Positions 20,740-22,517 of a stretch of DNA of 64,000 nucleotides are shown here, piece after piece. The first letter of the stretch is position 1. Each line of letters opens with the position of its first letter. The stretch is from positions 124,001 to 188,000 of the forward strand of contig NZ_CACZDK010000004.1 of the NCBI RefSeq assembly GCF_902779965.1, read 5' to 3'. The notes under the pieces are model-generated. The model made no database searches. It worked only from the letters and a program-made list of their open reading frames with translations, and was not told the origin of the DNA. Source of the DNA: Fibrobacter succinogenes (GTDB lineage: Bacteria; Fibrobacterota; Fibrobacteria; Fibrobacterales; Fibrobacteraceae). Both the position numbers and the translations under genes were made by a program.

Positions 20740-20840
20740 GGGGTGCAATTTAGGAAATTTTAGAAAGTCGCAATCGTAATACAATTGCAAAGCTCCGCAA
20801 ATCTGCGACAAAGCAGGTTCAAAACGCATTTTCACAGCAC

Positions 20841-21130
20841 AAAAAAAAGCCGAAATTGAAAAAACGCTGTTTTTTACGTAAAAAATCGCCCCAGAAGCCC
20901 AAATCTTACGTAAAATTTTTAGTTTGTTAGTAACAAAATTCAAAATTTCACGAAAAGCGCCTCCAAATCAGCCCCCCAAAAGTACTTTTAGGACGAAGAC
21001 CTACCATTTTCGCATGCCGAAACCCACGAAAACCCTATTCGTGACGCTCAATTCACTTAACTTATTATAAATTTTACGTAAAAAAAGCACGATATCGCAC
21101 ACTTTTTACGTAAAAAACGTCAAAAAATGA
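20841..21130. repeat. Long direct repeat flanking a nuclease gene, copy 1
   Basis: About 290 bp, non-coding, lying between trpS and the nuclease gene. It is in the same orientation as copy 2 at 22101-22387. Landmarks are the palindrome TTTTTTACGTAAAAAA (20870-20885), TTACGTAA (20906-20913), the near-identical block around CCAAAAGTACTTTTAGG, TTTTACGTAAAA (21072-21083) and TTTTTACGTAAAAA (21103-21116). Confidence 0.9.
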
Positions 21131-21163
21131 GAATCAGCTCTGCAAGGCCAAAAATTACTTTAT

Positions 21164-21994
21164 TTACACCAAGTACTTTTTTGCAAGCTTTTGCACCATT
21201 TGGGAATTTAATGGTTTATCACGAGATTCCATCGTAAATATGAAATTGTCCCCAAGGAAATACCCGCTATTCTGATACATTTCAATTTTCACAACGGCAT
21301 TTTGAGCATATTCAGCATCATCCATCATTCCAAAATGTTCCCACACGAACTCTTTTCGAGTACGAACATTCAAACAAGTAAAATCAGAATAGACTTTAAC
21401 GCAACGCGATGATTCCACGCATTTCAACTCATGCGGAAACTCATAGCGATAAGGAATGCCTAAGCTTGCTAAAACATCAGCAATTATAATCTCTGATTTT
21501 GAGCGAACGCACTCCCCCTTTGCAGTCAAAAGCCCAGTATTTTCAATAGTTTTCCCCTTATAGCGCAAGCTCTGCCATAGATCCGCAAAATCCGAATCAG
21601 GAATATTTAGCGGCACAATTTGTTCTCGCAACCTATCCCCCATGGACATAAAAATTTTTTCACCATTTTGCGGAACATAGGAATTCACCAATTGGTCCAA
21701 AACGCTCCTTTGCCGTTTAAAATCATCAAGAAGCAAAGTATTGTATTTCTTTTGAGCAAGAGCTCGAATCAATTTCGTTTTGCCCTTAGACAAATAAGAG
21801 CGCTTCGACCCCACAATACGTTGCCATTGCGCCTGAGAATGACTGCTCGTGCTGTAAAGAGTCCCCTCTGGAGCCTTTTCCAATTGCATCTGCAAAAAAT
21901 CAATAACCTGCTGAAGTTCATCAATTCTTTTTTGAGCTTGAGACAAAATACAATCAACAGAGAGTGCGCACCCATCTATTTTCATCATGTTCAT
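21164..21994 (-). CDS. Predicted PD-(D/E)XK-type nuclease between direct repeats
   Basis: 276 residues. The N-terminal half is helical, with a coiled-coil-like start (about 15-42). The C-terminal half carries a pattern known from restriction-endonuclease-fold proteins: SKSE at 165-168, an IPYRYEFP strand at 180-187, SDF at 203-205, WEHFG at 218-222, then a K-x-E...Y...G stretch and an IFTMES strand. The acidic and Lys residues are as expected for an active metal-dependent nuclease, but no family is named with certainty. GAGGG lies 8 bases before the ATG. The gene is AT-rich and bracketed by ~290-bp direct repeats, which suggests arrival as a unit. Confidence 0.7.
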   Translation of the reverse strand: MNMMKIDGCALSVDCILSQAQKRIDELQQVIDFLQMQLEKAPEGTLYSTSSHSQAQWQRIVGSKRSYLSKGKTKLIRALAQKKYNTLLLDDFKRQRSVLDQLVNSYVPQNGEKIFMSMGDRLREQIVPLNIPDSDFADLWQSLRYKGKTIENTGLLTAKGECVRSKSEIIIADVLASLGIPYRYEFPHELKCVESSRCVKVYSDFTCLNVRTRKEFVWEHFGMMDDAEYAQNAVVKIEMYQNSGYFLGDNFIFTMESRDKPLNSQMVQKLAKKYLV

Positions 21995-22100
21995 TTAAAT
22001 ACCCTCGCCGTACTATAACGGCAATTTCATAAACGAAACGATTTAAAAAGGGATATAAGAACTGATATAGGAACCACTTTAATATACAAATTAACAATTC

Positions 22101-22387
22101 AAAAAAAAGCCGAATTTGAAAAAACGCCGTTTTTTTACGTAAAAAACGCATCAAGATCCCAAATCTTACGTAAAATTCTTAGTTTGTTAGTAACAAAATT
22201 CAAAATTTTACGAAAAACGCCTCCAAATCAGCCCCCAAAAGTACTTTTAGGACGAAGACCTACCATTTTCGCACGTCAAAACCAACGGATCCCCTATTTT
22301 TGGCGCAAATTCGATTAATTTATCACAAATTTTACGTAATAAATCCACGAAACCACACTCTTTTTACGTAAAAATCGCCCAAAAACA
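22101..22387. repeat. Long direct repeat flanking a nuclease gene, copy 2
   Basis: Same orientation and block order as 20841-21130, with scattered base changes and small indels (my by-eye estimate is 80-90 percent identity). The central block around CCAAAAGTACTTTTAGG is almost unchanged. It carries the same series of TTTACGTAAA-like palindromes, one of them altered to TTTTACGTAATA. Confidence 0.9.
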
Positions 22388-22517
22388 TTGAATAACATTT
22401 CAAAGCTCAAATTTTTTAACGAAAAACATCCTTTGCCGCTGAAATATGTCATGTTTTAGGCAATTCAGCAACGGTATGATACACTTTTCGTTTCTTTTAA
22501 TTACATTTCTTTTCCAA

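Follow-up and report, generated by a model that had tools for sequence, protein, structure and literature searches.

The closest system described so far to the one reported here is the partnership of REP-associated tyrosine transposases (RAYTs; REP, repetitive extragenic palindrome) with REPINs, in which the transposase gene is flanked by repeats, inverted pairs are dispersed outside genes, and each paralogue has a repeat class of its own (PMC3116915, PMC3733652). REPs tagged with CGTC lack a known transposase and were reported from Spirochaetes as well (PMC3733652). The locus analysed here lies between trpS and rnd in a 64,000-nucleotide stretch of a Fibrobacter succinogenes genome (NZ_CACZDK010000004.1, positions 124,001 to 188,000, called the window below). 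In it two direct repeats, each a copy of a ~300-bp element dispersed through that genome, bracket a gene for a putative PD-(D/E)XK nuclease. Judged from sequence, gene and elements may form a single-gene, two-part system that works like RAYT and REPIN but has a PD-(D/E)XK-type enzyme in place of the Y1 transposase, and we give this reading a probability of about 0.55.

The locus shares with RAYT-REPIN pairs the flanked gene, the dispersed extragenic inverted pairs and the private repeat class of each paralogue. Unlike them, it encodes an enzyme with a predicted PD-(D/E)XK-type fold where the RAYT is Y1/HUH, its arms have neither a hairpin of their own nor a GTAG tag, and its pairs are helically phased and sit in a compound four-site element or in tandem arrays with a shared second motif, here called M. 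Because the Y1 fold and the GTAG-tagged hairpin were looked for and not found, the locus is not counted as a member of RAYT-REPIN, although its anatomy works like one. It resembles the CGTC-tagged REPs in its extragenic inverted pairs, and arm variants of this genome's element family (TTACGTCA/TGACGTAA) read CGTC on one strand. In those REPs, however, stems of 8-9 bp enclose loops of 4-5 bp and end in a CGTC tag (PMC3733652), whereas the arms here vary completely by lineage.

The features of the locus are as follows. Below, G with a number denotes a genome that was compared (G000 holds the window), and L with a number a locus.

20841 to 21143, plus strand: element 1 (~303 bp), consisting of outer 33 bp, inverted-repeat pair P1-P2, motif M, spacer, motif M, inverted-repeat pair P3-P4 and outer 30 bp; edges set where similarity between non-orthologous copies stops
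20874 to 20881, no strand: element 1, site P1, TTACGTAA, from an 8-mer search
20906 to 20913, no strand: element 1, site P2, 32 bp from P1
20919 to 20930, plus strand: element 1, first motif M, TTAGTTTGTTAG, common to arrays with other arms
21058 to 21069, plus strand: element 1, second motif M, TTAACTTATTAT
21074 to 21081, no strand: element 1, site P3, 200 bp from P1
21106 to 21113, no strand: element 1, site P4, 32 bp from P3
21164 to 21994, minus strand: gene for the 276-residue PD-(D/E)XK-like nuclease-family protein, stop included
21791 to 21862, minus strand: codons 45-68, a beta meander that forms the tip joining two long helices and is proposed to recognise the arm
21167 to 21517, minus strand: codons 160-276, PD-(D/E)XK-like domain, in which R164-S-K-S-E168, D204-F205 and E219-H220 do not vary
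22102 to 22401, plus strand: element 2 (~300 bp), order and orientation as in element 1, edges set in the same way
22135 to 22142, no strand: element 2, site P1
22166 to 22173, no strand: element 2, site P2, 31 bp from P1
22179 to 22190, plus strand: element 2, first motif M, TTAGTTTGTTAG
22313 to 22326, plus strand: element 2, second motif M, GATTAATTTATCAC
22332 to 22339, no strand: element 2, site P3, 197 bp from P1
22364 to 22371, no strand: element 2, site P4, 32 bp from P3

A first-pass annotation of this DNA had described two repeats of the same orientation and block order, each with about four ACGT-centred palindromes and a near-identical core, and all of this was recovered. A 163-bp block (20818-20980 and 22078-22240) is 83% identical between the repeats, further blocks of 75 bp and 78 bp are 87% and 81% identical at a nearly constant offset of ~1,259 bp, and the pair overall shows ~86% identity across ~288 bp. 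The palindrome TTACGTAA occurs exactly four times in each repeat, at +0, +32, ~+200 and +232, and these eight are all the copies in the window, where about one would be expected. Both elements have exactly the same core, CCAAAAGTACTTTTAGG (20976-20992 and 22235-22251). None of the other element loci checked in the window genome contained the inner part of this core, AAAGTACTTTT. Element B of G051 and the G001 element carry CCAAAAGTTACTACTAAAG, which is similar to it.

The two repeats are copies of a discrete element of which this genome holds 19. It consists of four TTACGTMA sites arranged as two inverted-repeat pairs, and besides these two ~17 more four-site copies were found, in which the sequence between the sites is unrelated; a search of the genome for the pair pattern gave 30 matches, against 0 with a reversed control. 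The left half reads outer 33 bp, TTACGT(A/C)A, 24 bp, T(T/G)ACGTAA, motif M as TTAACGTTGTCTGTAA and spacer; the right half follows with motif M as TTAATTTGTACG, TTACGT(A/C)A, 24 bp, T(T/G)ACGTAA and outer 30 bp. Similarity between non-orthologous copies drops to chance ~30 bp beyond the outer arms, which marks the element as a unit of ~300 bp. Its ends are symmetric in the G000 family, the outer 30 bp being alike on both sides. Copies with the arm TTACGGGA in G025 and G056 likewise share a body and termini (GGRGATAATTT) at different loci. In its size and terminal inverted repeats the element is like a miniature inverted-repeat transposable element (MITE).

The palindrome emphasised by the first-pass annotation is present in the window, but it is an accident of this lineage's arm, TTACGTAA. 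As a definition of the element the exact TTACGTAA was too narrow (3 of 61 genomes), and relaxing the site to TKACGTMA exposed a wider family, with 73 elements across nine congeners. In general terms the unit is an inverted pair, either TTACGNNA-N24-TNNCGTAA or a pair with an unrelated arm. The elements are intergenic in open-reading-frame maps, beside genes that are unrelated to each other and convergent, divergent or tandem; with neighbour orientation so mixed, a role as the neighbours' promoters or operators was ruled out. Many elements occupy orthologous positions across genomes, yet close relatives can be without them: the number per congener ranges from 0 to 20, with none in the close relative G128. 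Genomes that have a matching nuclease (the G000 clade and G051) mostly hold 8-19 elements and those that lack one 0-4, with G001 and G056 as exceptions. The repeat is thus genome-wide. The first-pass annotation had named an ordinary genome-wide element with no relation to the gene as grounds against its own reading; a relation to the gene does exist, however.

A tie between gene and repeat comes from relatives of the nuclease. A scan of GTDB species genomes gave 80 loci from Fibrobacter, from Treponema and other Spirochaetes and from a few Clostridia, and most of the relatives examined in Fibrobacter, Treponema and the few Clostridia adjoin inverted-repeat arrays whose arm varies by protein lineage. 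Fibrobacter relatives adjoin pairs with the arms TTACGTGA (G051, G058), TTACGGGA (G025) and TTACGGAA (G024), and further ones with GGCGGTGAAA, GGCGGTGGAAA, GCGGGGTT, GTGACTAA, GTACAGGC, TGCTACCA, TGGGTACC, TTGGGGAT and GGACCAAA. The arrays are often tandem, with up to 12-13 pairs, such as TTCCGACA every 74 bp (L292) or TACGGACG every 95 bp (L290), the loops within an array are alike, and in most loci the array is upstream of the gene. At least three pairs stood on one side in 27 of 65 non-redundant loci and at least two in 43 of 65, with arm calls made automatically and array detection weak in Lachnospiraceae; among 107 control stretches 2.7-3.6 kb away, one had two pairs and none had three. 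The more alike two of the proteins are, the more alike are their arms (Mantel r 0.60, permutation p <0.001). Once the nuclease domain is accounted for, it is the beta tip whose partial correlation with the arm is largest (0.28), which suggests that this tip is likely the reader of the arm. In two Treponema genomes the local nuclease's arm recurs in more arrays, which lie away from the nuclease gene and beside unrelated genes.

Two loci deserve separate mention. At L282 (Fibrobacter sp. MAG021) near-identical arrays flank the nuclease on both sides, a duplication like that in the window. At L366 (G168 C41, Treponema) a 12-unit TACGGACG array with 95-bp spacing lies among unrelated neighbours on a contig other than that of the nuclease.

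The spacing of the sites is helical. Distances from P1 to P3 are confined to 177-180, 188-191, 197-201 and 209-211, and a Rayleigh scan of pair-to-pair distances in 73 elements gave a best period of 10.5 bp with R 0.895, while a random-jitter control stayed at R <=0.38. In nuclease-flanking arrays across taxa the spacing period is 10.45 bp (R 0.906, n=150), and when each locus contributes a single value R is 0.88 (n=105). A period of ~10.5 bp is the helical repeat of B-DNA, which speaks for a protein on one face of double-stranded DNA.

The arms also change in concert. When dispersed elements at orthologous places are compared, the seventh arm position goes with the clade: it is A in G000, mostly C in G004, and G in G051, G047, G045, G014 and G044, and the switch is usually made in all four arms together. 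Identity between orthologues is 0.44 at this position, as compared with 0.72 in the loops. The switch looks incomplete in G051, where a few elements still have TTACGTCA and one is mixed. The proposal that the repeats are binding arrays or substrate sites of the nuclease gains from all three lines, namely covariation of arm and protein, helical phasing and concerted change. That the arrays are double-stranded DNA sites cognate to the protein is, as far as sequences can tell, strongly supported.

Motif M (consensus TANTTTGTNYG or its complement) lies ~12-19 bp from the arm core irrespective of the arm sequence. It is found in Fibrobacter systems with unrelated arms, for example at 20919-20930 and 21058-21069 in the window and at L231, L233, L238, L282 and L245. 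An ordinary host promoter was ruled out as its identity: upstream of 102 genes, TTANTTTGT occurred 2 times forward and 2 reverse, which is no enrichment. By contrast, TAnnTTTG was enriched in the same 102 regions, 24 vs 11.

The single open reading frame between the repeats encodes 276 amino acids on the minus strand. Its PD-(D/E)XK features, noticed in the first reading, are backed by the predicted fold and by the conserved E168, D204 and E219-H220. The AlphaFold2 model, made with 63 family members, has a pLDDT (predicted local distance difference test) of 91.9 and shows a helix (16-39), a beta meander (45-68), a second helix (73-105) and then the PD-(D/E)XK-like domain; R164-S-K-S-E168, D204-F205 and E219-H220 are invariant in the 63 sequences. 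In structure comparisons the C-terminal domain matched, among others, Bax1 (Z 8.2), TnsA (7.7), Vsr (6.6) and XisH (5.8); the coiled-coil half matched only generic coiled coils. Predicted structure and conserved residues place this C-terminal domain in the PD-(D/E)XK fold and make the protein a putative nuclease. The family is present in 49 of 80 congeneric Fibrobacter genomes, with 1-8 copies each, and is rarely carried by phages or plasmids. Its dN/dS is 0.09-0.18 across domains, a sign of purifying selection on a protein that is maintained; positive selection on the beta tip was not seen (dN/dS 0.17).

Searches with the window protein matched no family in Pfam (Y1 families among them), NCBIfam or PHROGs, a profile search of PDB gave no match, and Foldseek gave none at E <0.001 for the model. 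The sole PADLOC match (E 3.5e-23) covers ~118 C-terminal residues and corresponds to the C-terminus of the candidate PDC-S68, whose models span ~1200 positions, unlike the 276-residue, array-associated protein here. The nuclease domain also occurs in helicase/ATPase-type proteins on plasmids. TnsA, Vsr, Bax1 and XisH share the fold and match the C-terminal domain in structure, but no sequence relationship to the window protein was found. An N-terminal coiled coil with a beta tip is not known from them. In contrast to a Tn7-like transposon there is one gene only between the elements, with no TnsB or TnsC. TIGR-Tas also sets a small nuclease beside an array (PMC12045711), and the TasH coiled coil was among the weak structural matches (Z 7.3), but there the nuclease is HNH or RuvC, whereas here a PD-(D/E)XK one is predicted, no spacer array is apparent, and the phasing favours DNA sites. 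The open PubMed Central literature yielded the work on REPIN/RAYT and TIGR and no description of this nuclease-array system.

The first-pass annotation read the locus as a cassette gained by insertion or recombination, and predicted that some relatives would have one repeat and no gene between trpS and rnd. Such a site was found in G001, which has one intact element there and no gene. Its element is a hybrid, matching G051 element A up to the first motif M and element B after it, as expected from recombination between two direct repeats, and the gene was lost between them. The gene is at trpS-rnd in G000, G134, G039, G038, G004 and G051, flanked in all six by the dispersed repeat on both sides, and more distant homologues are there in G058 and G024. 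The interval is short and empty in G128, G014, G047, G044 and G019; G136 and G130 keep only the decayed right half of one element. Since distant congeners (G051, G058, G024) share related nucleases at this place while others are empty, the cassette looks old and repeatedly lost. The sequences point to recombination between the repeats as a route of loss, and the cassette is no recent gain here.

Taken together, these results lead us to suspect the following. The gene product, a helical hairpin with a variable beta tip joined to a PD-(D/E)XK-like domain, would recognise an arm of ~8-11 bp, and one site would be two inverted arms 24-37 bp apart. Sites at whole turns of B-DNA would place the bound protein on one face, bridging or looping pairs, probably as a dimer or higher multimer when it bridges. 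Flanking elements and dispersed copies would all be cognate sites of a single protein. Different arms go with the other paralogues, and protein and arm thus seem to co-diverge. The vertically inherited enzyme gene may thus bind non-autonomous extragenic elements and drive their spread or upkeep, both persisting together. That element and protein are a REPIN/RAYT-like pair with an unrelated enzyme is likely, if unproven. We put at even odds the broader claim of an undescribed class of system, spanning at least Fibrobacterota, Spirochaetes and some Clostridia, in which a fast-changing beta tip lets a PD-(D/E)XK-like protein read its own phased arrays, and the protein maintains these or spreads them along the chromosome.

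Several observations weigh against this RAYT-REPIN-like reading. No target-site duplication was visible, the empty sites being too diverged for precise junctions, and no insertion was caught in the act among the element loci compared (elements 2-10, with alignments inspected for six). Several near-identical G025 copies have duplicated surroundings, so some may have travelled with larger segments. G001 has 18-19 elements, mostly TTACGTGA, and G056 has six TTACGGGA elements, and no matching nuclease was found in either assembly; the genomes compared are drafts, which makes absences provisional. No array was detected by the 8-mer test in 22 of 65 loci, and in Treponema the arrays, which are tandem, mostly stand on the upstream side alone, an arrangement that would suit autoregulation as well. 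The apparent invariance of arm positions 1-6 and 8 is partly built in, because copies were picked by a search pattern that includes these positions. Arms have been updated in old elements whose loci are fixed, which hints at selection on sites already in place and not at copying alone.

The main rival, which we consider unlikely, is a stored and autoregulated defence nuclease. Such a protein would repress its own gene, stay inactive on chromosomal arrays and, once freed by infection or damage, cleave foreign DNA, with rapid arm divergence as the trace of an arms race. The upstream position of most arrays, the patchy gain and loss with 1-8 paralogues per genome, and the nuclease domain held in common with the PDC-S68 C-terminus and the plasmid helicase/ATPase-type proteins all agree with it. 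However, autoregulation would need neither the ~17 arrays near unrelated genes nor an array on each side of its own gene, and the likeness to PDC-S68 is confined to the nuclease domain. An improbable reading is that the phased sites anchor a nucleoid protein that retains a nuclease fold and organises or loops the chromosome; phasing, vertical inheritance at orthologous loci and indifference to neighbour orientation would suit it, but congeners range from 0 to 20 elements with none in G128, the gene was lost repeatedly, and the putative catalytic residues are invariant. It is very improbable that the pairs act as RNA, transcribed as hairpins that guide or inhibit the nuclease in the manner of CRISPR, TIGR or type III toxin-antitoxin systems: each pair could fold into a hairpin and arrays precede the nuclease gene in many loci, but a 10.5-bp period of centre distances fits double-stranded DNA and not RNA, the loops within an array are not unrelated spacers, and an Rfam search gave nothing near threshold. 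Coincidence, with an ordinary MITE family landing on both sides of an unrelated gene, would explain the MITE-like size, the symmetric ends and the many copies without a gene, but is hardly credible when related nucleases at several loci in several phyla adjoin arrays with a matching private arm and the arm covaries with the protein.

If the RAYT-REPIN-like reading is true, the locus would represent a second, unrelated solution to the REPIN-type partnership of an enzyme gene with scattered non-coding elements, and would give a function to a nuclease family found in more than half of the Fibrobacter genomes yet absent from Pfam and NCBIfam. It would also offer dozens of natural protein-DNA recognition pairs, each target beside its gene, as a natural recognition code, and a test case for specificity that co-evolves at many genomic sites at once.

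Some smaller observations concern individual elements. Element 4 (L049) has flanks that match L126, L138 and L143 with one side inverted, which suggests a rearrangement there. The TTACGGGA nuclease in G025 (L150 / L227) is flanked by duplicated copies of a tRNA-like gene and by element copies. A separate REP-like hairpin repeat, TGTCATTCCCGCCTCNGAGCGGGAATC, recurs between genes in G128 and G045 (L336, L339, L340) and in G000 near element 6 (L051).
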